Shown: piece after piece, positions 13,462 to 25,720 of the stretch
Numbering within the stretch: the stretch's first letter is position 1
Layout: each line of letters opens with the position of its first letter
Assembly: GCA_018222585.1 (NCBI GenBank)
Contig: JAAFAB010000012.1
Coordinates: 1 to 64,000, forward strand
DNA: 64,000 bases
From: Paracoccaceae bacterium
Lineage (GTDB): Bacteria; Pseudomonadota; Alphaproteobacteria; Rhodobacterales; Rhodobacteraceae
Reading direction: 5' to 3'
The notes under the pieces: model-generated
The model's database searches: none
What the model saw: the letters and a program-made list of their open reading frames with translations, nothing else
What the model was told of the DNA's origin: nothing
Translations under genes and position numbers: made by a program

Positions 13462-13544
13462 TCTATTCACCGGGTCCGGGGCCTTCGTGCCCCGCTCCCT
13501 GCACGAAACTGGCGCTTGCCGCGCCGCGACATGAGGAGATGAAC

Positions 13545-13670
13545 ATGAAGGTTCGTAACTCGCTCCGCTCGCTGAAGCAGCGCCATCGCGATTGCCGCGT
13601 CGTGCGCCGCAAGGGCCGCGTCTATGTGATCAACAAGACGCAGCGTCGCTTCAAGGCCCGTCAAGGCTGA
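13545..13670 (+). CDS. rpmJ: 50S ribosomal protein L36, zinc-free form
   Basis: The 41-residue product ([20 protein letters not shown]...) is ribosomal protein L36. It has a single cysteine (residue 17) and lacks the Cys3-His zinc ribbon, so it is the C-minus (YkgO-like) type normal in alphaproteobacteria. AGGAGA stands 8 bases before the ATG. It lies 83 bases after tRNA-Val, and no promoter is obvious between them, so cotranscription is possible. A strong terminator follows. Confidence 0.96.
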
Positions 13671-13692
13671 TCGAAGCACCCGAGCTTACCTG

Positions 13693-13721
13693 AAAAAGGG
13701 TCGCGTTTCGCGGCCCTTTTT
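13693..13721 (+). terminator. Rho-independent terminator of rpmJ
   Basis: AAAAAGGGTCGCG and CGCGGCCCTTTTT form a stem with a TTT loop and end in a T run, 22 bases after the rpmJ stop. The A run on the other side makes it potentially bidirectional. Confidence 0.85.
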
Positions 13722-13769
13722 CGTTGCGCTCCCCCTGTCGGGATGGATGCTGCGCCCTACCCTTTCCCC

Positions 13770-14003
13770 ATGATCACCCGAGAGTTCTCCCGCCTGCGCC
13801 GGGTCCTGGCGCAGCGCCCACCGGGGCCGTTCCATTTCAGCGAGCTGATCGAGGGCTGGACCAGCCTGCCGATCGGCGAGAAGGTGCGCCGCGGCCATGA
13901 TTTCCTGACGGCGGTGCGCGACGGCAGGATGCCCGGCGTAACCGACACCGGGCATAAGGACGCCGCAGGGCGCCGCTATCACTGGGATGGGTCTCAGTCG
14001 TAG
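13770..14003 (+). CDS. Uncharacterised small protein, 77 residues (86 from the upstream ATG)
   Basis: A small soluble protein with a helix-rich middle (FHFSELIEGWTSLPIGEKVRRG) and a charged C-terminal tail. It faintly resembles DUF1413-type or small winged-helix proteins, but this is a guess. Two in-frame ATGs (13743, 13770) exist, neither with a good ribosome-binding site. The shorter one is chosen because the sequence before it is proline-rich and lies close to the rpmJ terminator. Its last 10 bases overlap the convergent ligase gene. Confidence 0.55.
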   Translation: MITREFSRLRRVLAQRPPGPFHFSELIEGWTSLPIGEKVRRGHDFLTAVRDGRMPGVTDTGHKDAAGRRYHWDGSQS

Positions 14004-15229
14004 CTGCGCCGGTCCTCGATCACCAACCCGTCGTTGGGCAGGCTGCCCGGCGCCAGGATCTCGATCTCGGCCTTCAGCTTCATCACCTGCGCGACACTCT
14101 CGCCATAGGCGCCGGCATCGCCGCCGGGGCTTTCGACCTGGACCAGCATCCGGTCGGCCTCGTCCTCGCGCAGGGCGACGACGCGGGCGCGGGTGATCTC
14201 GTCGTGGCGGGCGACGAAGGCGGCGACCTGCTCGGGGCGCACGAACATGCCCTTGATCTTGGTGGTCTGGTCGGCGCGGCCCATCCAGCCACGGATGCGC
14301 AGGTTGGTGCGCCCGCAGGGGCTGGTTCCCGGCATCAGCGCCGACATGTCCCCCGTGGCGAAGCGGATCAGCGGATAATCGGGGTTGAGCGTGGTCACCA
14401 CCACCTCACCCACCTCGCCCGGCGCGACGGGTGTGCCGGTGCCGGGGGTGACGATTTCGACCAGCACGCCCTCGTCGAGGATCATGCCCTCCATCGCCGC
14501 GCTCTCGTAGGCGATATTGCCCAGGTCGGCGGTGGCATAGCATTGCAGGCAGGCGATGCCGCGATCCGCGTATTCGGCGCGCAGCGAGGGGAACAGGGCG
14601 CCGCCACCGACCGCCGCCCGGCTGATCTGCAGCGGCAGGCCATCGGCCTCGGCGCGATCCAGAATCACCTTCAGGTAATCCGGCGTGCCCGCATAGGCCG
14701 TGACACCGAGGTCATGGGCCGCACGGGCCTGCAACTCGGTCTGGCCGGTGCCGGCGGGCAGCACCGTGGCGCCAACGGCGCGGGCGCCGTTCTCGAAGAT
14801 CATGCCGGCGGGTGTCAGGTGGTAGCTGAAACAGTTCTGCACCACGTCGCCACGCCCGATGCCGGCGGCATGAAGGAAACGCCCCATGCGCCACCAGTCA
14901 TGCCCCGCGCCACCCGGCTCGTAGATCGGGCCGGGGCTCTGGAACAGATGGGCGAAGGCCTGCGGTGGCAGGCTGCTGAGCCCGCCGAGCGGCGCGCCGG
15001 GGCGTTGCCGCGCAACGAGGTCGCTCTTGCGCAACACCGGCAGGGCGGCGAGATCGGCCAGCCCGGTGATTGTCGTCGGATCGACGCCGCGCAGGCTGTC
15101 ACCGTAGCCCGGCAGGGCGACGGCGGCGGCCACCTGCCCGGGCAGGGCGCGGGCAATCGCCGCCTCGCGCTCGTCGGCACTGCGGGTTTCCAGCGCATCG
15201 TAATGGCCGGTGCGGGCCTGGCCTGTCAT
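13994..15229 (-). CDS. Phenylacetate-CoA ligase-like (PaaK family) AMP-forming ligase
   Basis: The 411-residue protein has the PaaK-family plan: an adenylating N-terminal domain and a C-terminal domain beginning around GRADQTTKIKGMFVRP, with the conserved aspartate and lysine of adenylate-forming enzymes. The ATG at 15229 is five bases behind GGGAGGGA; a GTG at 15244 is unlikely. It should attach CoA to an organic acid, possibly aromatic. It is the last gene of the ligase/ABC-importer operon, which suggests that the imported acid is activated on entry. The substrate is unknown. Confidence 0.87.
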   Translation of the reverse strand: MTGQARTGHYDALETRSADEREAAIARALPGQVAAAVALPGYGDSLRGVDPTTITGLADLAALPVLRKSDLVARQRPGAPLGGLSSLPPQAFAHLFQSPGPIYEPGGAGHDWWRMGRFLHAAGIGRGDVVQNCFSYHLTPAGMIFENGARAVGATVLPAGTGQTELQARAAHDLGVTAYAGTPDYLKVILDRAEADGLPLQISRAAVGGGALFPSLRAEYADRGIACLQCYATADLGNIAYESAAMEGMILDEGVLVEIVTPGTGTPVAPGEVGEVVVTTLNPDYPLIRFATGDMSALMPGTSPCGRTNLRIRGWMGRADQTTKIKGMFVRPEQVAAFVARHDEITRARVVALREDEADRMLVQVESPGGDAGAYGESVAQVMKLKAEIEILAPGSLPNDGLVIEDRRSYD

Positions 15230-15248
15230 CTCTGTCCCTCCCACTTTT

Positions 15249-16085
15249 TCAACTCAGCCAACGCTTGCGGCGCCGGTACGAGCGCACGTCGCGGAAGCTC
15301 TTGCGCCCCTCGTCGGACATGCCGAGGTAGAATTCCTTCACGTCCGGGTTCTCGCGCAGGGCCGCCGCCGCGCCGTCCATCACCACCCGCCCCGATTCCA
15401 GGATGTAGCCGTAATGGGCAAAGCGCAGCGCCACGTTGGTATTCTGTTCGGCCAGCAGGAAGGTCGCCCCCTGCTCTTCGTTGAGGCTTTTGACGATGCC
15501 GAAGATCTCTTCCACCAGCTGCGGCGCGAGGCCCATGCTGGGTTCGTCCAGCAGGATCGTCTCGGGGCGGGACATCAGCGCCCGGCCGATGGCGATCATC
15601 TGCTGCTCGCCGCCCGAGGTGTAGCCGGCCTGGGATTTGCGCCGCACCTTCAGGCGCGGGAAATACTGGTAGACCATCTCGAGGTCGGCCTCGATATCGG
15701 CCTTGCCGCTGCGGGTATAGGCGCCGGTCAGCAGGTTCTCCTCGACCGTCAGGTGTTCAAAGCAGTGCCGCCCCTCCATCACCTGAATGACGCCCGCCCT
15801 GACCAGGCTGGCCGGATCCAGGTCCTGCACCCGCTGGCCGCGATAGAGGATCGAGCCCTTGGTCACCTCGCCGCGCTCACTGCCCAGAAGGTTGGAAATC
15901 GCCTTCAGTGTCGTGGTCTTGCCTGCGCCGTTGCCGCCCAGCAGAGCGGTGATCCCGCCCTTGGGCACCGACAGGCTGACCCCTTTCAGCACCAGGATGA
16001 CGTGATTGTAGATCACCTCGATATTGTTGACCTCGAGAAGGGTCTCGGCGGTCACTGCGTCGCTCTGCGTTGCTTTGTCCAGCAT
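15249..16085 (-). CDS. livF: Branched-chain-type ABC transporter ATP-binding protein, LivF family
   Basis: One of the two ATPases that power this importer. The 278-residue protein has Walker A GGNGAGKTTT, the signature SGGEQQM and Walker B TILLDEPSMGLAP. It is longer than E. coli LivF (about 237), because of a C-terminal tail rich in basic residues (RSYRRRKRWLS). The ATG follows GAGAGGGG. It is separated from the binding-protein gene by a strong hairpin at 16141-16170, and precedes the ligase gene by 19 bases. Confidence 0.93.
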   Translation of the reverse strand: MLDKATQSDAVTAETLLEVNNIEVIYNHVILVLKGVSLSVPKGGITALLGGNGAGKTTTLKAISNLLGSERGEVTKGSILYRGQRVQDLDPASLVRAGVIQVMEGRHCFEHLTVEENLLTGAYTRSGKADIEADLEMVYQYFPRLKVRRKSQAGYTSGGEQQMIAIGRALMSRPETILLDEPSMGLAPQLVEEIFGIVKSLNEEQGATFLLAEQNTNVALRFAHYGYILESGRVVMDGAAAALRENPDVKEFYLGMSDEGRKSFRDVRSYRRRKRWLS

Positions 16086-16140
16086 GGGCCCCTCTCATCG
16101 GTCGGCCTTTGATACGCTTGTGCCCGCGTCACCACGGGCG

Positions 16141-16170
16141 CCCGGCCCCCGGGAAAATCCGGGGACCGGG
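16141..16170 (-). other. Strong RNA hairpin directly downstream of the binding-protein gene
   Basis: In the minus-strand transcript CCCGGUCCCCGG pairs over 12 positions with CCGGGGGCCGGG around a six-base loop; one pair is G-U, and would be a C-A mismatch on the plus strand. It sits 8 bases after the binding-protein stop, within an operon. It may protect the upstream mRNA from 3' decay or attenuate downstream transcription. Confidence 0.6.
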
Positions 16171-16177
16171 TCCTGTC

Positions 16178-17473
16178 TTATTCGCAGCCCGGCGTGATGC
16201 CGTTTTCCTCGGCATAGGCCATGCTGTCGGCTTCGATCAGCGGATTCAGCACCTCCTCGTCGGCGGGGCCGTAGTCACTGATCAGCGACCAGGTGCCCGC
16301 CGCGGCGTCCCACTGCGCCATGGCGCCCAGGCCATCGCCGCCGTGGTTGCCACAGGTCACCTTGAAGGTCGGACCGAAGTTCGGCAGGCCAAGGGCGGCC
16401 ATCTTCTCTTCGGTGATCTCAAGCGCCTCCATCCCGTCGCGCATCATCGCGGGGGTGATGTCGGGGGTGCCGTGGATCTCCTGCGCGGTGCGCGCGGCCT
16501 CGGCGGCCAGCATCGCGGCATACATGCCCCGGCTGTAGAGCGCGGTGCCCAGCTGGTCCCCGGCCCCTGCGGCCTTGCCCGCGTCGACGACATATTGCTT
16601 CAAGTCGTCGTAGATCGGGTAATCCATGCCGAGGTTGTGGAAGGTCAGAGCCTTGTAGCCATCGGCGCCGTCACCGGCCGGCAGCACGTCGTTCTCGGAA
16701 CCGGACCACCAGATGCCGATGAAGTTCTCCATCGGATAGCGGATGTTCACCGCCTCCTGGATGGCGACCTGGTTCATCACGCCCCAGCCCCACATGATCA
16801 CGTTGTCGGGCCGTTCGCGGCGGATCTGCAGCCACTGGCTCTTCTGTTCCTGGCCGGGGTGGTCGACCGGCAGCAGCAGCAGCTCATAGCCATGCTTGGC
16901 CGCCAGTTCCTCGAGCGTGCGGATCGGCTCCTTGCCATAGGCCGAGTTATGGTAGACCAGCGCGATCTTCTTGCCGCTGATGTCGCCGTCGTTCTGGGCC
17001 AGGATGTGATTGATCGCATGGCTGGCGCCATCCCAGTAGTTCGCCGGGTAGTTGAAGATCCAGCGGAAGACCTCGCCGTTCTTCGCCGAGGTCCGCCCGT
17101 AGCCCATCGAGTGCACCGGGATGCCATCCGCCGTCGCCTTGGGGATCAACTGGTAGGTGATGCCGGTCGACAGCGGCTGGTAGATCAGCGCGCCCTCGCC
17201 CTTGGTGGCCTCGTAGCACTCGACCCCCTTCTCGGTGTTGTAACCGGTCTCGCACTCCAGGATGTTGATCGGCACGCCGCCGATGCCCCCGTCCCGCTCG
17301 TTCAGCAGGGTCAGGTAATCCTGGTATCCGTCCGAGAACGGGATGCCGTTGGCCGCATAGGGGCCGGTGCGATAGCTCAGGTCCGGGAACACCAGATCCG
17401 CTGCGGCAGGTCCTGCCGTCAGGCAAGCCGCTACCAGGGCCGCGCCCGCGGCCTTCAACTTTCTCGTCGCCAT
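16178..17473 (-). CDS. Periplasmic substrate-binding protein of the Liv-type ABC importer
   Basis: A type I periplasmic binding protein that captures the substrate for the importer. The 431-residue precursor has a clear signal peptide (MATRKLKAAGAALVAACLTA, cleavage after AAA near residue 25). It is larger than LivK (about 345 mature), as is usual for binding proteins of aromatic or other organic acid importers in this group. A GGAGGAGA site precedes the ATG. It is bracketed by hairpins, fitting its need for higher expression than the permeases. The ligand is unknown. Confidence 0.9.
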   Translation of the reverse strand: MATRKLKAAGAALVAACLTAGPAAADLVFPDLSYRTGPYAANGIPFSDGYQDYLTLLNERDGGIGGVPINILECETGYNTEKGVECYEATKGEGALIYQPLSTGITYQLIPKATADGIPVHSMGYGRTSAKNGEVFRWIFNYPANYWDGASHAINHILAQNDGDISGKKIALVYHNSAYGKEPIRTLEELAAKHGYELLLLPVDHPGQEQKSQWLQIRRERPDNVIMWGWGVMNQVAIQEAVNIRYPMENFIGIWWSGSENDVLPAGDGADGYKALTFHNLGMDYPIYDDLKQYVVDAGKAAGAGDQLGTALYSRGMYAAMLAAEAARTAQEIHGTPDITPAMMRDGMEALEITEEKMAALGLPNFGPTFKVTCGNHGGDGLGAMAQWDAAAGTWSLISDYGPADEEVLNPLIEADSMAYAEENGITPGCE

Positions 17474-17508
17474 CCTTGTCTCCTCCCTAGGTTTGGACGG
17501 TCCGTGCC

Positions 17509-17575
17509 GGGGCTCCTCTTCCCCGGATGCAGGGCCGGTCCGGGCCCTGCGGGCTGCGGCGGGGCTCCTCTTCCC
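17509..17575 (-). repeat. Direct repeats flanking a hairpin between livM and the binding-protein gene
   Basis: GGGGCTCCTCTTCCC occurs at 17509-17523 and 17561-17575. Between them GCAGGGCC (17529-17536) pairs with GGCCCTGC (17543-17550). The arrangement fills the 119-bp gap after livM. It could be an mRNA processing site that frees the binding-protein message. Confidence 0.6.
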
Positions 17576-17592
17576 TGCCGCATGGCGCCTTC

Positions 17593-18669
17593 CTAGTGCG
17601 GGAAGGGCCAGAGTCTCAGCTTCTCCTTGCCGACGCGCCAGAGCTGCGCCAGCCCGTGCGGTTCCGCCACCAGGAAGGTGACGATCAGCCCGCCGACGAT
17701 CATGAATTCAAGGTGCGCCGCCAGATCCGTCGGCCAGCCGAGGCCGCCGACCAGCACGTTCTTCAGCAGCACCGGCAGCAGAACCAGGAAGGCCGCACCC
17801 ATCAGGCTGCCGGCGATCCGACCCAGTCCGCCGATGATGATCATGAACAGCACCAGGAAGCTCTTGTTGATGCCGAAGGCCTCGCCCACCTCGACCGCGC
17901 CCAGGTAGACGGCGAAGAACAGCGCCCCCGCGATGCCGATGAAGAACGAGCTGACCGCGAAGGCCGAGAGCTTGGCCGAGAGCGGATTCACCCCGATGAT
18001 CTCGGCGGCGATGTCCATGTCGCGGATGCCCATCCAGCTACGCCCCATGGTGCCCCGCGTCAGGTTGCGCGCCACCACGGCGGCGAAGATCAGGAACAGC
18101 AGGCAGAACAGGTAGGTCACCCAGGCCTCGGCGTTCGGGCCGGTCACGGCCTGGCCCAGCACCGTACGTTCGGGCGCGCTGATCTGGCCCGAGGCGGAAT
18201 AGTTGTAGAACCAGGGCACCCGGTTGAACAGCCAGACCAGGAAGAACTGCGCCGCCAGCGTCGCCACCGCCAGGTAGAACCCCTTGATCCGCAGCGAAGG
18301 CAGGCCGAAAAGCACCCCGACCCCGGCGGTGATCCCGCCGGCCAGCAGCACATGCACGATGATCGAGACCTCGGGGAAGGCGGTCATCAGCTTGTAGGTG
18401 GCATAGGCGCCGACCGCCATGAAGCCGCCGGTGCCCAGCGAGACCTGGCCGCAGAAGCCGACCAGGATGTTCAGCCCGATCGCCGCGATGGCGTAGATCA
18501 GGAAGGGCAGCGCCACGGCGTTGGCCCAGTAGTCGTTGATCACGAAGGGCACCACCAGCAGTGCCACGGCCAGCGTGACCTGTACCGCGATCCGGTCGAA
18601 GCGGATCGGGAAGCTCTGTCCGTCTTCCCTGTAGCTCGTCTTGAAGTCTCCGGCCTCGCGGTACAGCAT
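17593..18669 (-). CDS. livM: Branched-chain-type ABC transporter permease, LivM family
   Basis: One of two integral membrane subunits of the importer. The 358-residue protein has about eight to ten hydrophobic segments and the family's core NILVGFCGQVSLGTGGFMAVGAY and later GLGRIAGSLMGAAFL, where it should contact the ATPases. The start ATG at 18669 lies three bases after the stop of a small membrane-protein gene, behind GAGG. Length is normal for this family. Confidence 0.93.
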   Translation of the reverse strand: MLYREAGDFKTSYREDGQSFPIRFDRIAVQVTLAVALLVVPFVINDYWANAVALPFLIYAIAAIGLNILVGFCGQVSLGTGGFMAVGAYATYKLMTAFPEVSIIVHVLLAGGITAGVGVLFGLPSLRIKGFYLAVATLAAQFFLVWLFNRVPWFYNYSASGQISAPERTVLGQAVTGPNAEAWVTYLFCLLFLIFAAVVARNLTRGTMGRSWMGIRDMDIAAEIIGVNPLSAKLSAFAVSSFFIGIAGALFFAVYLGAVEVGEAFGINKSFLVLFMIIIGGLGRIAGSLMGAAFLVLLPVLLKNVLVGGLGWPTDLAAHLEFMIVGGLIVTFLVAEPHGLAQLWRVGKEKLRLWPFPH

Positions 18670-18672
18670 GTC

Positions 18673-18882
18673 TCAGACCTCGCTTTGCGGTGCGATCCGC
18701 TGGTGGGGTTCGATCCGGTTGCAAAGCCCCAGATGGCACAACATGCCGCCCAGGAAGCCCGCGCCGGACAGGGTGGCGGCGCTCAGCTGCTCGCCGGCCG
18801 AGAGATCGGCGAACAGGGCGATCAGGCCGAAACACCAGAAGGCGCCCCAGGCCAGCACGTTGAGGATCGCCAGCAGCTTCAT
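18673..18882 (-). CDS. Small two-helix membrane protein (69 residues) within the importer operon
   Basis: Not recognised. It has two hydrophobic segments (about residues 3-25 and 36-54), with cysteines in or near each, and a polar tail (RIEPHQRIAPQSEV). Its ATG overlaps the stop of the preceding small gene by four bases (ATGA), and livM begins three bases after its own stop, so it is translated as part of the operon. Its first segment resembles that of its neighbour (both W...W/C-rich after MK), suggesting an old duplication. It may be an accessory subunit of the permease; that is inference. Confidence 0.75.
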   Translation of the reverse strand: MKLLAILNVLAWGAFWCFGLIALFADLSAGEQLSAATLSGAGFLGGMLCHLGLCNRIEPHQRIAPQSEV

Positions 18883-19091
18883 GCCTCTTCTCCGCGCGCC
18901 CAGGCGATTCGGCGGCAGGCGACCAGGTAGGTCAGCCAGGCCCCCAGCAGACCGATGGCCAGGATCACGACGTTGACCAGAACGTGATGGCCCGCGACCA
19001 CCTCGGCCTTGGCCGACCAGAAGACGAAGCCCCAGTAGCAGGCCCAGACGACCAGCATGGCGACAAGACGGATACCCTTGATGTCTTTCAT
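18879..19091 (-). CDS. Small two-helix membrane protein (70 residues) within the importer operon
   Basis: Not recognised. There are two hydrophobic segments (about residues 9-27 and 37-58), joined by a short loop with a His-His pair, and a basic end (CRRIAWARGEEA). GGAGGAGA lies eight bases before the ATG at 19091, an excellent ribosome-binding site; a longer in-frame reading to 19157 is rejected. It follows livH by 92 bases and overlaps the next small gene. Coupling between livH and livM suggests a role in assembly or function of the importer, but no function is known to me. Confidence 0.75.
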   Translation of the reverse strand: MKDIKGIRLVAMLVVWACYWGFVFWSAKAEVVAGHHVLVNVVILAIGLLGAWLTYLVACRRIAWARGEEA

Positions 19092-19183
19092 TTCTTTCTC
19101 TCCTCCTTTGCCCCGGTTCCTCGTCCGGGGGCCCCGGGCGGGCGGGTGTCGCGACAAAGTCGCGCAGTCGCCCGCGGGGGTCT

Positions 19184-20170
19184 TTACACTCTCTCGATAA
19201 TCCGTTCCCCGAACAAGCCCTGAGGCCGGAAGACCAGGAAAAGCAGCGCCAGAACGTAGGCGAACCAGTTCTCGGTCGCCCCGCCGACCAGCGGCCCGAC
19301 GAGGAACTCGAACAGTTTTTCACCAACCCCGATGATCAGCCCGCCGACGATGGCGCCGGGAATCGAGGTGAAACCGCCCAGCATCAGCACCGGCAGGGCC
19401 TTCAGCGCGATCAGCGACAGCGAGAACTGCACGCCAGACTTGGTGCCCCACATGATCCCCGCGACCAGCGCCACGAAGCCCGCGATCGACCAGACCAGCA
19501 CCCAGATGAAGTTCAGGCTGATGCCCACCGACAGCGCCGCCTGGTGATCATCGGCCACGGCACGCAGCGCCCGGCCCTGTTTCGAGTACTGGCTGAAGAT
19601 CGTCAGCGCGATGACCAGCGCCGCCGCGATCACCGTCGCCCAGATATCGAGGTTGTCGATGAAGAACCCGTAGCCGAAGGCGTTGAAAGTGGTCTCGTCG
19701 ATCCAGGCATTGATGCCCTGCGGCAGGCCGACATCCAGCTTCTTGATGTCCGCGCCCCACATGATGTCGCCGAGGCCCTCCATGAAATAGGCCAGCCCGA
19801 TGGTCGCCATGAACAGGATGATCGGCTCCTGCCCGACCAGGTGGCGGAAGATCAGCCGGTTCACCGCCCAGGCCAGGGCGACCATGACGACACCGGTCAG
19901 CAGGATCGCGGCCACGGCGGGCAGGTGCCAGCCGAAGTGGTGGATCTCGGTGCCGAAGGCCGCGTTGATCAGGTGGCTGAAGGGCACCTGGCCCTCCATG
20001 ATCCCGACCAGGGTCAGCGCGGCGAACAGTGCCATGACCCCCTGCGCATAGTTGAAGATGCCGCTGGCCTTGAAGATCAGCACGAAGCCGAGCGCCACGA
20101 GCGCATAGAGCACCCCGGCCATCAGCCCGTTGAGGAAGACCTCCATGGCGAAGAGAAGCTGGTCAGGCAT
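19184..20170 (-). CDS. livH: Branched-chain-type ABC transporter permease, LivH family
   Basis: The second membrane subunit of the importer. The 328-residue protein carries the LivH-family N-terminal block EVFLNGLMAGVLYALVALGFVLI and the cytoplasmic-loop block ADDHQAALSVGISLN, typical of the ATPase-contact region. Its ATG overlaps by one base the TAA stop of the preceding secreted-protein gene (TAATG). Length is slightly greater than E. coli LivH (308). Confidence 0.93.
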   Translation of the reverse strand: MPDQLLFAMEVFLNGLMAGVLYALVALGFVLIFKASGIFNYAQGVMALFAALTLVGIMEGQVPFSHLINAAFGTEIHHFGWHLPAVAAILLTGVVMVALAWAVNRLIFRHLVGQEPIILFMATIGLAYFMEGLGDIMWGADIKKLDVGLPQGINAWIDETTFNAFGYGFFIDNLDIWATVIAAALVIALTIFSQYSKQGRALRAVADDHQAALSVGISLNFIWVLVWSIAGFVALVAGIMWGTKSGVQFSLSLIALKALPVLMLGGFTSIPGAIVGGLIIGVGEKLFEFLVGPLVGGATENWFAYVLALLFLVFRPQGLFGERIIERV

Positions 20171-20742
20171 TAGTCACATTCCTCCGGCCAGAGTGCGCAA
20201 GATGCGGGGGTGTCCTTCACGAGTGCGGACAGCAGGATCACCAATCCCGTCTCGCCCCACTCGTGGCGATGCCCGGTGATCTGGACGAACCGGCCGTCCT
20301 GCGGCTTGCTCGCGAAGCCGCTGACGCGCCGGGGAGTCTGCGCGTCGGCAGGCTCTTTCGCCCGGAACCCCTTTGCCGGATCCTGCACATACTCGTTCCA
20401 GCGGGCCGCGAAATCGGCAGCGGTCGCCGTGCCCTCGCCCGCGATCATGCAGGTTTCGGGCGTGGCGTCCTGTACCAGCACCATCGCCGCCCCGCCCGCC
20501 TCGAAGGCATAGGCCTGCCTGACAAGGGTCGGGTCCGCTCCGGTCGTGGCGGCCCAGGCTGCGATCTGATCGCGGCTCATCTTCCGCATTTCAGGTGCCA
20601 GAGCCGCCCCCTGAGCATCCGGGTCGGAAAGGCAGACGGTCTCGAAGGCCGCCATGGGATCATCGAAACGCACCTCGGCCCGCGCCTGCAACGCCCCGAG
20701 CGTCAGCGCAACCGAGGCCAGGGGTCCGAGCGCCCTAATCAT
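20170..20742 (-). CDS. Uncharacterised secreted protein nested between livG and livH
   Basis: The 190-residue product starts with a signal peptide (MIRALGPLASVALTLGALQA, cleavage near ARA-EV) and has four cysteines in the mature part (ETVC, ETCM, ASC, EEC) that could form disulfides. I do not recognise the family. The ATG at 20742 lies inside the last codons of livG (8-base overlap), and its stop overlaps the livH start, so it is firmly part of the importer operon. A second periplasmic component of the system is a reasonable guess. The alternative start is TTG at 20754. Confidence 0.75.
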   Translation of the reverse strand: MIRALGPLASVALTLGALQARAEVRFDDPMAAFETVCLSDPDAQGAALAPEMRKMSRDQIAAWAATTGADPTLVRQAYAFEAGGAAMVLVQDATPETCMIAGEGTATAADFAARWNEYVQDPAKGFRAKEPADAQTPRRVSGFASKPQDGRFVQITGHRHEWGETGLVILLSALVKDTPASCALWPEECD

Positions 20743-21577
20743 GGGCCACCCCAAGGTAGGCGTCGATCACGTCCTGGTTGCTGCGCACCTCGTCCGGGGT
20801 GCCGTCGCCGATCTTGCGACCGTAGTCCATCACCACCACCCGGTCGCTCAGGTCCATCACCACGCCCATGTCGTGTTCGATCAGCGCGATGGTGGTGCCG
20901 AATTCGTCGTTCACGTCGAGGATGAAACGGGACATGTCCTCTTTCTCCTCGACGTTCATGCCGGCCATGGGTTCGTCCAGCAGCAGCAGCTTCGGCTCGG
21001 CGGCCAGCGCGCGGGCCAGCTCCACGCGCTTCTTCAAGCCATAGGGCAGCCGCGCCACGGGCGTCTTGCGAATGCTCTGGATCTCGAGGAAGTCGATGAT
21101 CCGCTCGACCTTCTCGCGGTTCTCGATCTCCTCCCGCTCGGCGCGGCCAAACCACAGGGCCTGCCGGAACACCCCGGATGTCATGTGGTTGAGCCGCCCG
21201 GTCATCACGTTGTCCAGCACCGTCATACCCTCGAACAGGGCGATGTTCTGGAAGGTCCGCGCCACGCCCTGCCGCGCCACCTCGTAGGGGCGCATCCGGG
21301 GCCGGCGCTGCCCGTGGAACCAGACCTCGCCCTCCTGCGGATTGTAGAAGCCGCTGATCACGTTCAGCATCGAACTCTTGCCCGCGCCGTTCGGCCCGAT
21401 GATCGCGCGGATCTCGCCCTGCCGGATGTCGAAGGAGATGTCCTTGATCGCCTCCACCCCGCCGAAGCGCAGGGTGATGTTGCGCATCTCCATCATCACG
21501 GGCCCGATCTGGCGCCCGTCCTGGGTCACCCAGCCCTCGGCCGGCTGGTCGGTAACGATCTGTTCTGCAAGGCTCAT
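20735..21577 (-). CDS. livG: Branched-chain-type ABC transporter ATP-binding protein, LivG family
   Basis: The other ATPase of the importer. The 280-residue protein shows Walker A GPNGAGKSS, a family-specific signature LPYGLKKRVELARAL (in place of the usual LSGGQ) and Walker B LLLLDEPMAGMN, then the H-loop in ALIEHDMGVVM. A polar N-terminal extension of about 25 residues precedes the core. The ATG shares four bases with the stop of the upstream acyl-CoA synthetase gene (ATGA). Confidence 0.93.
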   Translation of the reverse strand: MSLAEQIVTDQPAEGWVTQDGRQIGPVMMEMRNITLRFGGVEAIKDISFDIRQGEIRAIIGPNGAGKSSMLNVISGFYNPQEGEVWFHGQRRPRMRPYEVARQGVARTFQNIALFEGMTVLDNVMTGRLNHMTSGVFRQALWFGRAEREEIENREKVERIIDFLEIQSIRKTPVARLPYGLKKRVELARALAAEPKLLLLDEPMAGMNVEEKEDMSRFILDVNDEFGTTIALIEHDMGVVMDLSDRVVVMDYGRKIGDGTPDEVRSNQDVIDAYLGVAHD

Positions 21578-23550
21578 TCCGCCGCCACCCTTTCCGCACC
21601 GCGATCCACGACCGCCGCGTCACACAGCCTCAGCCTGGCCGAGATATGGCCCTTGCGCCCGTCCTCGTAGGTCACTTCCGTGCGGGTCGAGACCTGTTCG
21701 GACCCGTCGTAGAGCGCGCCAATCAGGTCGGCGTATTTCTCTTCGACGATCTTGCGGCGCACCTTTCGGGTGCGGGTCATTTCACCGTCGTCGGCATCCA
21801 GCTCCTTGTGCAGCACGAGGAAGCGGTGGATCTGGCAGCCCGAGAGCATCTCGTCTTCCGCCACCGAGCGGTTGACCTGCTCGACATGCTCACGGATCGT
21901 TTCCAGCACCTGCGGATGGCCGGCCAGTTCCTGATAGCTGGAATAGGCGATGTTGTTGCGCTCGGCCCAGTTGCCGACGGCGGTCAGGTCGATGTTGATG
22001 AAGGCGGTACAGGTCTCGCGCCCGTTGCCGAAGACCACGGCCTCGAGGATGTTCGGGAAGAACTTCAGCTTGTTCTCGACGTATTTCGGCGCGAACAGGC
22101 GGCCGTCGGCCATCTTGCCCACGTCCTTGGCGCGGTCGATGATCCGCAGATGGCCGCTGCCCTCTTCGATGAAGCCCGCATCGCCGGTGGCCACCCAGCC
22201 CTCGGCATCCTTGGTCGAGGCCGTGCTTTCGGGGTTCTTGTAGTAAAGCTGGAACACCCCGGGGCTGCGATAGAAGACCTCGCCGCTCTCGGCGATCTTC
22301 AGCTCGACCCCGGGAGAGGCCACCCCCACCGTATCCGAGCGCACCTCGCCGTCCGGTTGCTGGGTGATGAAGACCGAGGCCTCGGTCTGGCCGTAGAGCT
22401 GCTTCAGGTTGATGCCGAGGGCGCGGTAGAAATCGAAGATCTCGGGCCCGATGGCCTCGCCCGCGGTATAGCCGACACGGATGCGGCGCAGGCCAAGGGT
22501 ATCCTTCAGCGGGCCGTAGATCAGCACCTCCCCCAGCCGGTATTTCAGCTGGTCGGCCAGCCCCACCCGCTGACCGTCCAGCATCCGCCCGCCCACCTGA
22601 CGCGCATGGGCCATGCACTTGTCAAACAACCACTTCTTGAACCGTCCGGCGTCTTCCATGCGGATCATGACGTTGGTGAGCTGGGTTTCGAAAACTCTTG
22701 GAGGGGCGAAATAGTAGCTGGGGCCGATCTCGCGCAGGTCCGTCGCCAGGGTCTCGGCGCTTTCGGGACAGTTGACGCAGAAGCCCGACCAATAGGCCTG
22801 GCCGATCGAGAAGATGAAGTCGCCGACCCAGGCCATTGGCAGGTAGGCCAGCACCTCCTCGCCCGGGCCGAGATCATCGAAAGCACTGGAATTCTTCGAG
22901 GTCTCGATGATGTTGCGGTTGGACAGCACGACGCCCTTGGGCTTGCCCGTGGTGCCCGAGGTATAGAGCATCACGCAGATGTCCTCGGGGCCCAGGGCAG
23001 CGGTGCGCCGCTCCATCTCGGGGGTCAGTTCCTCCCGGGCGGCCTGGCCCTGCTGCTGGACGTGGCTGTAATCATGCAGATGCGCGTGGTCGTATTTCCG
23101 CATCCCGCGCGGATCGAGGTAGAGGATATGATCCAGCGCCGGCAGCTGCGGCTTGACCTCGATGACCTTGTCGACCTGCTCCTGGTCCTCGGCGACGACG
23201 AAGCGGGCGCCGCAGTGATCCAGCACATAGGCCATTTCCTCGGCGGCACTGTCGGAATAGAGCGGCACGGGAATCGCCCCGACCATCTGCGCGGCCGGAA
23301 TGGTCCAGTAGAGATGCGGGCGGTTGGTGCCGATGATCGCGATGAAATCCCCCGGCTGCACGCCGAGGTTCAGCAGGCCAAGGGCAAGATTGCGAACCTC
23401 GTCCCGGGTTTCGGCCCAGGTCCAGCTTTGCCAGATGCCGAATTCCTTCTCGCGGTAGGCGGTCCGGTCCGGCCAGGTCTTCGCATTGCGTTCGAGCAGG
23501 GCGGGCACGGATGTCACCGGCCCGCCCGCCGCGTGCGAGATGTCTCTCAC
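21574..23550 (-). CDS. Long-chain-type acyl-CoA synthetase (AMP-forming)
   Basis: Activates a carboxylic acid to its CoA thioester. The 658-residue protein has the P-loop-like motif YTSGTTGKPKGV, the A5-type block LYGQTEASV, and ATGDAGF...IDRAKD of the C-terminal hinge. The length and ordering match FadD15-like enzymes. It starts with GTG at 23550 behind GGGGAGGAGA. It heads the ten-gene operon, 265 bases from the divergent sensor kinase gene. With a second ligase at the operon end, the import substrate or its product is likely an acid; fatty, aryl or aryl-alkanoic acids are all possible. Confidence 0.92.
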   Translation of the reverse strand: MRDISHAAGGPVTSVPALLERNAKTWPDRTAYREKEFGIWQSWTWAETRDEVRNLALGLLNLGVQPGDFIAIIGTNRPHLYWTIPAAQMVGAIPVPLYSDSAAEEMAYVLDHCGARFVVAEDQEQVDKVIEVKPQLPALDHILYLDPRGMRKYDHAHLHDYSHVQQQGQAAREELTPEMERRTAALGPEDICVMLYTSGTTGKPKGVVLSNRNIIETSKNSSAFDDLGPGEEVLAYLPMAWVGDFIFSIGQAYWSGFCVNCPESAETLATDLREIGPSYYFAPPRVFETQLTNVMIRMEDAGRFKKWLFDKCMAHARQVGGRMLDGQRVGLADQLKYRLGEVLIYGPLKDTLGLRRIRVGYTAGEAIGPEIFDFYRALGINLKQLYGQTEASVFITQQPDGEVRSDTVGVASPGVELKIAESGEVFYRSPGVFQLYYKNPESTASTKDAEGWVATGDAGFIEEGSGHLRIIDRAKDVGKMADGRLFAPKYVENKLKFFPNILEAVVFGNGRETCTAFINIDLTAVGNWAERNNIAYSSYQELAGHPQVLETIREHVEQVNRSVAEDEMLSGCQIHRFLVLHKELDADDGEMTRTRKVRRKIVEEKYADLIGALYDGSEQVSTRTEVTYEDGRKGHISARLRLCDAAVVDRGAERVAAE

Positions 23551-23656
23551 GACTGTTCTCCTCCCCTTTTCCCAGCCCTCCCCGACCAGGAAAAACCGCC
23601 CTCCTCAAGGCGGGTCGAATAGCCATCATCGCGCCGTCACATTCGCCGCGCGCTGC

Positions 23657-23718
23657 TGACTAGTCAAACATTATCTTCAATTTTTGCGCGATCATTTCCG
23701 TATCCTAACGAATTGTTA
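23657..23718. promoter_or_regulatory. Operator-like dyads in the divergent ligase/kinase intergenic region
   Basis: TGACTAGTCA at 23657-23666 is a perfect 10-bp palindrome. A second dyad, TAACGAATTGTTA (23706-23718), has TAAC/GTTA arms. Both lie in an AT-richer part of the 265-bp divergent region, where a regulator could serve both directions. Which protein binds is unknown. Confidence 0.4.
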
Positions 23719-23815
23719 CGGGTGCTGCGGCGCCGAAATCCTGCTGCGATTGCAAAGCGGGGGGCTGTCCCGAAGAAACCTTTTCCGCTAGCCCTGACAC
23801 AGGGAGAAGATAATT

Positions 23816-25720
23816 ATGCCGAGCCATCAGGCCCGTACGGATCGCATGACCATGGCCGGGCTGAACATGATCCAGCAGGCGCTGTCGATCTACGACCAGG
23901 ACCTGCGGTTGGTGCAATGCAACCGGCGGTTTCGCACCATGTTCGACCTGCCCGAATGGCTGACCCTGCCCGGCGCGCGATTCGAGGACACGATCCACCA
24001 TCTCTGCGCCTCGGGCGAATATGGCCCGCTGGCGGATCTTGAGGCGGCGGTGCGCGAACGGGTCGAGAAGGCCCTCGCCTTCGAGCCGCATTACATGGAG
24101 CGCACCCGTCCCAACGGCCGTGTCGTCAGCGTCGAGGGCGCGCCCCTGCCAGAGGGCGGATGGGTCACCGTCTACACCGACATCACCGACAGCCGCCGCC
24201 AGGAACAGCTGCTGCGCACCCGCTCCGAGGAGCTGTCGGAACAGCTTCTGTCCCGCGCCGAGGAGCTGGCCGCGACCAACCGCCAGCTGCAGGCTACCAA
24301 CTCGGCGCTGGAAGAGGCCAAGCGCGAGCTGATCGGCATGGAGGCCCGCATCCGCCTGATGACCGAGATGCTGCCCGCCCATATCGCCCATCTCGGCCCG
24401 GATCGCATCTATACCTATTCCAATCGCCGTCTCAGCCGGATCATGCCGGGGCGCCCGGCGCAGATCGTCGGGCTGCATATCGCCGACGTGCTGGGCCGCG
24501 CCTCCTACGGTTTCGTGCAACCGCACCTGGACGCAGCGCTGGAGGGGCGACCGTCGGTCTTCGAGTTCGCCGATGCCGAAAGCTCTCGCCGGATCCGTAC
24601 CGCGCTGACCCCGGCGGACAGCGGCGCCTACATCATGTCGATGGATGTGACCGAGGAAACCCAGACCCGTGCCGCCCTGGCCCAGACCAAGCGGCGCGAG
24701 CTGGCGGCGCAGGTGACCTCGGGCATGGCGCATGACTTCTCGAATCTGCTGACGATCATCCTGGGGCTGCAGTCGCGGCTGGCGCGGATGGACCTGGCCG
24801 CCGAGGCGCAGGAGCTGGTCACCGCGACCGCCGCCGCCGCCCGGCGCGGCGGCGACCTGCTGGACCGGATCGCCACGATGACCGGCGGGCGCGATCACCG
24901 CCCCGCCGCGACCCAGTGGGCCGCCTTCCTGCGCGACTTCACCACCCTCGCCCGCCCCTCCCTGCCCGAAACCGTGCACCTGCTGACCGAGGACAGCGTC
25001 GGCGACCAGCGGCTCTGGTTCGATCCGGGGATGCTGCAGGACAGCCTGCTGAACCTGGTGCTGAACGCCCGCGACGCGCTCGGCACGCAGGGCGGTGAGA
25101 TCCGGCTGGAGGCGCGCTGTCGTGCCGGCACCTGGCTGGAGATCACCGTCGCCGACACCGGCCCCGGCTTCACCGACAAGGCGCTGGACCAGGCCATGCA
25201 ACCCTTCTTCACCACCAAGGGAAGCGAGGGATCCGGCCTCGGGCTGTCGATGGTCTTCGACATGACCCAGCGGGCCGGCGGCCAGATGCGCCTGGCCAAT
25301 GACGCCGGCGCCCGAGTGACCCTGCAACTGCCCTGGCGCGAGGCCCCCCGCCCGGCAACGCCCGGCCTGGCCCTGCTGGTCGAGGACAGTGCCGACCTGC
25401 GCCGCTCGGTCCGCGACATGCTGGTGGCGCTTGGCTATTCGGTGATCGAGGCGACCAGCGCCGGCGAAGCCCGCACCATCGTGCGCGACCTTCCCGACCT
25501 GGTGCTGATCCTCTCGGACCTGTCGCTCGAGGGCGGCTCGACCGGGCTGGACCTGCTGGAGGCCCTGCCCCCCGAGGCCCCGCCGCTCTGCATCATGACC
25601 TCGCTGCGTCCCGATCACCCGCTGCACCGCGCCGCCGCGGCCCGGGTGCCGGTGCTGCAGAAACCCTTCGACCAGGCGCGCCTGGCCGCCCTGCTCGCCC
25701 CCGGAGAAGACGCCGCATGA
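23816..25720 (+). CDS. PAS-domain hybrid sensor histidine kinase
   Basis: The 634-residue cytoplasmic sensor has a PAS-7-type domain (about 15-125), a coiled coil (about 128-175), a second PAS domain (about 180-285), a HisKA-type phosphoacceptor segment with His306 (SGMAHDFSN), an ATPase domain with N-box NLVLNARDAL and G-boxes DTGPGF and GSGLGLS, and a C-terminal receiver whose likely phosphoacceptor is Asp568 (SDLSL). No membrane segments are seen. GGGAGAAG precedes the ATG. It overlaps the response regulator gene by four bases and diverges from the ligase/importer operon, its most likely target. Confidence 0.92.
   Translation: MPSHQARTDRMTMAGLNMIQQALSIYDQDLRLVQCNRRFRTMFDLPEWLTLPGARFEDTIHHLCASGEYGPLADLEAAVRERVEKALAFEPHYMERTRPNGRVVSVEGAPLPEGGWVTVYTDITDSRRQEQLLRTRSEELSEQLLSRAEELAATNRQLQATNSALEEAKRELIGMEARIRLMTEMLPAHIAHLGPDRIYTYSNRRLSRIMPGRPAQIVGLHIADVLGRASYGFVQPHLDAALEGRPSVFEFADAESSRRIRTALTPADSGAYIMSMDVTEETQTRAALAQTKRRELAAQVTSGMAHDFSNLLTIILGLQSRLARMDLAAEAQELVTATAAAARRGGDLLDRIATMTGGRDHRPAATQWAAFLRDFTTLARPSLPETVHLLTEDSVGDQRLWFDPGMLQDSLLNLVLNARDALGTQGGEIRLEARCRAGTWLEITVADTGPGFTDKALDQAMQPFFTTKGSEGSGLGLSMVFDMTQRAGGQMRLANDAGARVTLQLPWREAPRPATPGLALLVEDSADLRRSVRDMLVALGYSVIEATSAGEARTIVRDLPDLVLILSDLSLEGGSTGLDLLEALPPEAPPLCIMTSLRPDHPLHRAAAARVPVLQKPFDQARLAALLAPGEDAA

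Follow-up and report, generated by a model that had tools for sequence, protein, structure and literature searches.

The window, a 64,000-nucleotide stretch of DNA from a marine Paracoccaceae bacterium, contains a livH/livM-type importer operon on its minus strand that surrounds two small genes, P1 and P2. The operon runs in the order FadD-like synthetase, LivG, a 194-aa ORF, LivH, P1, P2, LivM, substrate-binding protein (SBP), LivF and PaaK-like protein. In window coordinates, its features are:

21574 to 23550, minus strand: long-chain acyl-CoA synthetase-like (FadD-like) AMP-binding enzyme, upstream end of the operon
20735 to 21577, minus strand: livG-like ATPase (ABC_tran)
19184 to 20170, minus strand: livH-like permease, 328 aa (BPD_transp_2)
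18879 to 19091, minus strand: P1, small membrane protein of 70 aa, divergent second family member; ATG start, TGA stop
18879 to 18882, minus strand: ATGA stop-start overlap of P1 and P2, read from the sequence
18673 to 18882, minus strand: P2, small membrane protein of 69 aa, the member found in the livH-livM slot across Rhodobacteraceae; ATG start, TGA stop
17593 to 18669, minus strand: livM-like permease, 358 aa (BPD_transp_2; BtuC-like fold)
16178 to 17473, minus strand: periplasmic SBP, 431 aa (Peripla_BP_6; relative of PDB 4ru0)
15249 to 16085, minus strand: livF-like ATPase (ABC_tran)
13994 to 15244, minus strand: PaaK-like AMP-binding protein, downstream end of the operon (Pfam score 28.4 against a cut-off of 29.9)

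The Pfam matches of the permeases (BPD_transp_2), ATPases (ABC_tran) and SBP (Peripla_BP_6) are those of a HAAT-type importer; neither permease reaches the NCBIfam cut-off for LivH or LivM. Like HAAT-type (LivFGHM) importers, the operon encodes LivH, LivM, LivG, LivF and a Peripla_BP_6 SBP, here around P1 and P2, but it differs from them in its two CoA-ligase-like genes and in the small proteins of the livH-livM slot. The FadD-like and PaaK-like genes are each present in 70 of 70 full loci. The closest named LivM record is that of Oceanicola sp. S124 (99%), followed by Pseudooceanicola species. An importer at 83% LivM identity lies on a contig titled Thioalkalivibrio sp. HK1 (L095), through contamination or transfer. 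Between livG and livH, the window carries a 194-aa ORF (20170-20754, minus strand; TTG start; signal-peptide-like by eye) with no match at E≤1e-5 among 70 named relatives. The livG-livH gap of S124 (L037) is only 68 bp, so this ORF looks like a recent insertion. The lactate ABC transporter of Phaeobacter (PGA1_c12640 onward), which we had presumed to be a possible match to the importer of the window, was set aside, its tags not being found in the literature searched. The passages of PMC9007349 that were consulted contain nothing on this operon.

The preliminary description of this DNA, made from the sequence, read two coupled 70-residue, two-helix proteins between the permease genes. The coupling stands as described, with an ATGA overlap and livM starting at 18669, 3 nt beyond the P2 stop; P1 does have 70 residues and P2 has 69. 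The livH stop is separated from P1 by 92 nt, and purine-rich, ribosome-binding-like stretches, judged by eye, lie 5' of P1, P2 and livM. Six pairwise comparisons for each gene, among the window and three relatives, put dN/dS at 0.07-0.67 for P1 and at 0.06-0.47 for P2, the highest values being those of pairs with P. marinus, which are relaxed (0.37-0.67). Single-gene relatives give 0.05-0.38 over 16 pairs. These codon changes reveal purifying selection, and the P1 and P2 ORFs are coding rather than chance; random mutation of the two frames, which the preliminary description named as an outcome that would speak against its reading, is not what we observe. AlphaFold2 predicts P2 to be a hairpin with helices at residues 2-24 and 29-56, confidently so (block-mean pLDDT 90-96 for residues 1-50 and 72 for 51-60). 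P2 was modelled within a stop-read-through fusion to LivM, a model scored by pLDDT (mean 76.7) and pTM (0.70) alone. A Foldseek search with it returned only BtuC/PsaC-like importer folds as top matches, none at E≤0.001. For P1, helices are predicted at 4-27 and 37-65 with a mean pLDDT of 74, so two helices are expected there at moderate confidence only.

The livH-livM gap ranges from 2 to 1221 bp in loci drawn nearly all from 80 + 30 genomes, and many gaps carry one protein of 59-93 aa of a single kind. In a 58-row alignment of this family, F18 is invariant and ten positions are near-invariant, at 90% or above (K2, A5, W12, F15, W16, G19, A22, L38, G42 and G46). Seven of these ten fall in the first helix, whose aromatic consensus is K-x-IAI-x-NV-x-AWSGFWAFGYLAL. 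P2 fits the family by its helix 1 motif, A-W-x-x-F-W-x-F-G, and by its profile match, with E values of 7.6e-23 in its own genome (profile A1, of which P2 is a row) and 5.2e-18 with profile A4, from which P2 was omitted. It has no Pfam or NCBIfam match at E≤1. The sole Pfam/NCBIfam match of P1 is PilV (E 0.073), whose 13.6 bits fall short of the cut-off of 52.2, and the 58 family members give scattered weak matches only (best E 0.0024). A PDB search with the family returned nothing convincing (stannin, E 0.008), and plasmid records gave no match to P1 or to a typical P2. We found no description of the family in a literature search at the level of abstracts, with most subscription papers lying outside it. 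The 58-row profile matches 119 of 292 genomes in an order sample, in which all listed genomes, matching or not, are Rhodobacteraceae, so that it says little on other families. In a class sample, nine of 337 genomes match at E≤0.01; the three convincing ones are all Rhodobacteraceae, and the six outside the family reach no better than E 5e-4, with four of these matches lying in frames of 268-448 aa. The small-protein family was found here only in Rhodobacteraceae.

P1 and P2 had been described as weakly alike in the first helix. The weak likeness is borne out, and it extends over the whole hairpin rather than the first helix alone: BLASTP gives 33% identity over 58 residues, and a profile comparison without shared rows (hhalign) gives a probability of 79.5% and an E value of 1.5e-5. 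An earlier profile comparison (probability 98.9) was discarded because two rows were common to both sides. In 2000 segment-wise shuffles, the scores of four P1s were reached 0, 4, 6 and 17 times, the window P1 being the one reached four times. Among 86 two-helix control ORFs, the best non-family one, judged by eye, scored 2.3 bits, as against 12.8 for the window P1. From these shuffles and controls, we judge a chance resemblance of two-helix proteins unlikely. Intermediates (L039, L040) exist as well: in P. spongiae and in P. sediminis, a single protein matches both the P1 and the P2 profile. By hhalign, intermediates and shuffles, the homology of P1 to the P2 family is weak yet above controls, and we read P1 and P2 as paralogues. 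Among the loci examined, the pair occurs only in the window and in three relatives of Pseudooceanicola type, S124, P. marinus and P. antarcticus; the tandem is a local elaboration and the single gene is the rule. A search with P1 alone matched four of 199 genomes, its own included. Because P1 is divergent and local, few matches are to be had with it, and the searches were re-centred on LivM and the P2 profile.

The position of the small gene is nearly constant. We scored it as just upstream of livM when it lay on the same strand within 2.5 kb; livH on the other side was seen in fetched loci only. All 74 checkable genomes of a first set pass, with a distance of at most 61 nt in 62 of them and never above 759 nt; this set is what is left of 113 genomes after 13 without LivM and 26 without a listed LivM position were set aside. 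With 69 of 71 in a second set, 143 of the 145 checkable genomes with both have the small gene in this position. The exceptions are G465, where it directly follows paaK, and G325, whose weak match (E 6e-4) may be false. The small gene is often stop-start coupled to livM. Presence is associated too: in a family sample of 296 genomes, LivM (E≤1e-60, with at most six candidates scored per genome, as in the distant-importer search below) is found in 225 and the small gene in 113, with both in 100, LivM only in 125, the small gene only in 13 and neither in 58 (odds ratio 3.6). Among the 13 is G147, a short contig on which importer pieces still lie.

The preliminary description called for a homology search to see whether the pair always accompanies the operon. 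It does not; importers without the small gene are common. Out of 155 distinct same-type importer loci, a sample biased in that 40 were fetched for lack of a profile match and 30 for having one, 93 have a family member in the gap; the others have a gap of at most 20 bp (19 loci), of 21-150 bp (28) or longer (15), so the small gene is missing from at least 47. Twelve importer genomes were searched whole: three have a matching slot member, and in the whole of the other nine nothing convincing turned up, the best match having E 0.004 and lying within a 409-aa frame. All ten distant importers examined (LivM 53-68%; nine lie outside Rhodobacteraceae, these being the out-of-family matches read for the junction) have a livH-livM junction of 4-66 nt with no ORF of at least 35 codons, another point in which the window operon differs from HAAT-type relatives. 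A quick LivM tree of 85 rows, built without bootstrap and including 70 randomly drawn from the 155 of type A, requires at least 19 changes in presence or absence of the small gene. An obligate subunit would be present whenever the importer is, and the small gene is not.

The livH-livM junction itself is unusually open to extra genes, judging by gaps above 150 bp in the 70 full loci: 55 at livH-livM, 0 at livM-SBP, 1 at SBP-livF, 4 at FadD-livG, 12 at livG-livH and 21 at livF-PaaK. Other small ORFs, hydrophobic by eye, occupy the slot in L074, L195, L202, L210, L228 and L234-L236. VOC/glyoxalase-like proteins (by eye) lie in the gap of L032, L036, L068 and L111. L022, L045 and L220 have long open insertions in the slot, with translations that look similar across genomes and are possibly one mobile element; the insertion interrupts the small gene in L022 and comes after it in L045. 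In L025 and L071, a 30-residue slot ORF (MKSYFV...FGYFKLSRESE) appears by eye to be what a deletion has left of the small gene (profile E 0.22).

Two kinds of natural change bear on whether the small gene belongs to the permeases. In five mosaic loci, L251-L255, the outer genes resemble those of the window (FadD 73-79% identity, LivG 82-87%, LivF 84-87%, PaaK 69-74%), but LivH (53-54%), LivM (44-54%) and SBP (44-48%) do not to the same degree. The small gene lies between the replaced livH and livM in all five. L252, L253 (in two pieces) and L255 have in common a caspase-like/peptidoglycan-binding downstream neighbour. On the quick LivM tree, the five form one clade, and lineages without the small gene stand between this clade and the window's type. 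A motif search located P2 in 44 of 71 loci, and 40 of these represent the window's type (A) in our comparison of identities. Median identity falls from 84 within type A to 59 between types A and B for LivH, from 85 to 54 for LivM and from 76 to 46 for SBP, with little or no drop for FadD, LivG, LivF and PaaK. P2 shows no split, at 51% within type A and 54% between A and B, for motif-picked P2s, a selection that favours similar ones in both groups. A dedicated partner would be expected to diverge or be exchanged with LivH and LivM. On these identities P2 appears to do neither across a drop of 25-31 points in LivH, LivM and SBP, which suggests that the small gene did not travel with the neighbouring permeases. 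Two separate replacements, or a block replacement followed by re-entry of the small gene, could each account for this.

The second change is loss of the importer. A LivM match is lacking in fourteen genomes that nevertheless carry the small gene: five by a search at E≤1e-30, and nine by one at E≤1e-50 that left out seven order-sample genomes of one genus. We read all 14 loci and found no other importer gene beside the small gene; three have weak local FadD matches to unrelated AMP-binding proteins. An obligate subunit would be absent when the importer is absent, and in these 14 genomes it is not. The neighbours of several importer-less small genes are the genes that flank the importer elsewhere. 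Among 70 named loci, the importer is flanked by a caspase-like/peptidoglycan-binding gene downstream in 30, by an N-formylglutamate amidohydrolase in 36 and by an alanine dehydrogenase/PNT-like protein upstream in four. The clearest case is a pair from one genus. G108 reads dehydrogenase, FadD, LivG, LivH, small gene, LivM, SBP, LivF, antisense gene, PaaK, caspase-like, amidohydrolase; G413 reads dehydrogenase, small gene, antisense gene, caspase-like, amidohydrolase, with an extra 279-aa ORF before the small gene. The flanks are equal, all seven importer genes are gone and the small gene is intact. After the small gene, G413 has a 38-nt match (87%) to sequence 3' of livM in G108; the match is hairpin-like and could therefore be a similar terminator rather than a remnant. 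The antisense gene (L248:12065-12949, L247:6441-7310) has no Pfam match, lies between livF and paaK and remains in G413, where the importer is gone.

Both importer flanks are likewise found in G044, directly beside the small gene, and in G073, with other genes between. One shared flank is found in G087 and G161 (amidohydrolase) and in G122 and G463 (an S49 peptidase that lies beside the importer in L050 and L058). The 14 importer-less genomes thus divide into three with both flanks, four with one and seven not placed; G227 has two neighbours in common with importer locus L079, in unclear orientation. The proteins extracted from importer-less genomes keep the motif or close variants of it. Pairwise dN/dS is 0.19 for G122/G463 and 0.15 for G073/G044, the latter with synonymous sites near saturation; G122/G158 is relaxed at 0.53, and two further pairs are saturated.

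The preliminary description suggested that the small proteins could be accessory parts of this importer. A near-invariant place, coupling and selection agree with it; frequent absence, lack of divergence with the permeases and survival beyond the importer do not. P1 and P2 are probably not essential parts. Our best explanation, to which we give an even chance, is a lineage-specific small membrane protein with a role independent of this importer. When its neighbours change, the small gene goes along with neither permeases nor importer, and for this reason a helper with a wider role is favoured over a dedicated accessory subunit. The latter, a weaker but still substantial prospect, would have P1 and P2 bind LivM or LivH and stabilise or tune them without being essential, importers that lack them being adapted and importer-less copies being relics or having switched to other HAAT permeases. 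It accounts well for the place that the small gene takes before livM in 143 of 145 genomes, the stop-start coupling, the retention between replaced livH and livM in five of five mosaic operons and the association with LivM over 296 genomes. It is harder to reconcile with P2s that do not split between two permease types whose LivH and LivM differ by 41-46%, with a small gene that outlasted the importer at its locus in G413 and still lies between the two flanks in G044 and G073, with dN/dS values of 0.15 and 0.19 for two importer-less pairs (a third has 0.53) and with absence from ten of ten distant importers. The near-constant place beside livM also counts against our preferred reading, as it is expected of a functional partner too, and so does the association in presence. 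Moving a gene out of an operon is difficult, so constant position is explicable by descent. There may also be other, more distant HAAT permeases in the importer-less genomes, which the small protein could serve.

We consider it unlikely that the livH-livM junction is merely a tolerant landing site, with P1 and P2 as passengers on the importer promoter that have no functional link to it. The gap statistics fit (of 70 loci, 55 have more than 150 bp there, whereas none does at livM-SBP and one does at SBP-livF), as do the small hydrophobic-looking ORFs and VOC-like proteins found there in other genomes. Yet one family dominates the slot in the loci examined and its sequence is under selection, and it is not evident why a mere passenger should persist when the permeases are replaced. 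That the ORFs are a leader or RNA element rather than genes is very improbable: they are short, fast-evolving and sometimes lost, but they have synonymous bias and a conserved protein motif, remain intact in importer-less genomes, and the region from 13500 to 24500 has no Rfam match at gathering score.

For a helper with a role wider than the importer, we envisage the following. P1 and P2 are two paralogues in a Rhodobacteraceae family of small inner-membrane helical hairpins. The gene of this family may have come to lie between livH and livM in an ancestral HAAT-type importer and been inherited there, where its translation would be coupled to that of the permeases. That the protein is neither obligate nor permease-specific is indicated by its distribution, by permease replacement and by its persistence where the importer was lost. 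Through its conserved aromatic first helix, it most likely packs against membrane proteins, which it would stabilise or tune; the importer would be a common partner, though not a necessary one. In the lineage of the window, the tandem pair probably arose by duplication, and P1 and P2 possibly form a heterodimer.

Small hydrophobic proteins with a transporter or an oxidase as their target offer some comparison. KdpF is one of them, on or in its complex, and AcrZ, KdpF and CydX have one helix each. CbiN and NikN are two-helix auxiliary components of ECF-type metal importers and are tied to their transporter. As their abstracts describe them, AcrZ and CydX resemble P1 and P2 as short hydrophobic proteins acting on, or part of, a membrane complex. 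P1 and P2, likened to AcrZ, KdpF and CydX by description, differ in having two helices and in that the small gene is found where the neighbouring complex was lost. They resemble CbiN and NikN as small two-helix proteins encoded within an importer operon, but their family is not tied to a transporter; this separation is again by description, along with the lack of a Pfam match at E≤1.

Taken together, our results describe a small-protein family that neither Pfam nor NCBIfam covers, and indicate that even a near-invariant, translationally coupled place in an operon does not have to imply a dedicated subunit. Permease replacement and importer loss are natural experiments able to separate a partner protein from a passenger. 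We tentatively propose that the importer locus is modular and the hairpin its stable element, with permeases and SBP exchanged around it and the importer itself losable. If true, this would suggest a broad helper of membrane proteins, in insertion, stability or quality control, and other small proteins may replace the hairpin in the slot.
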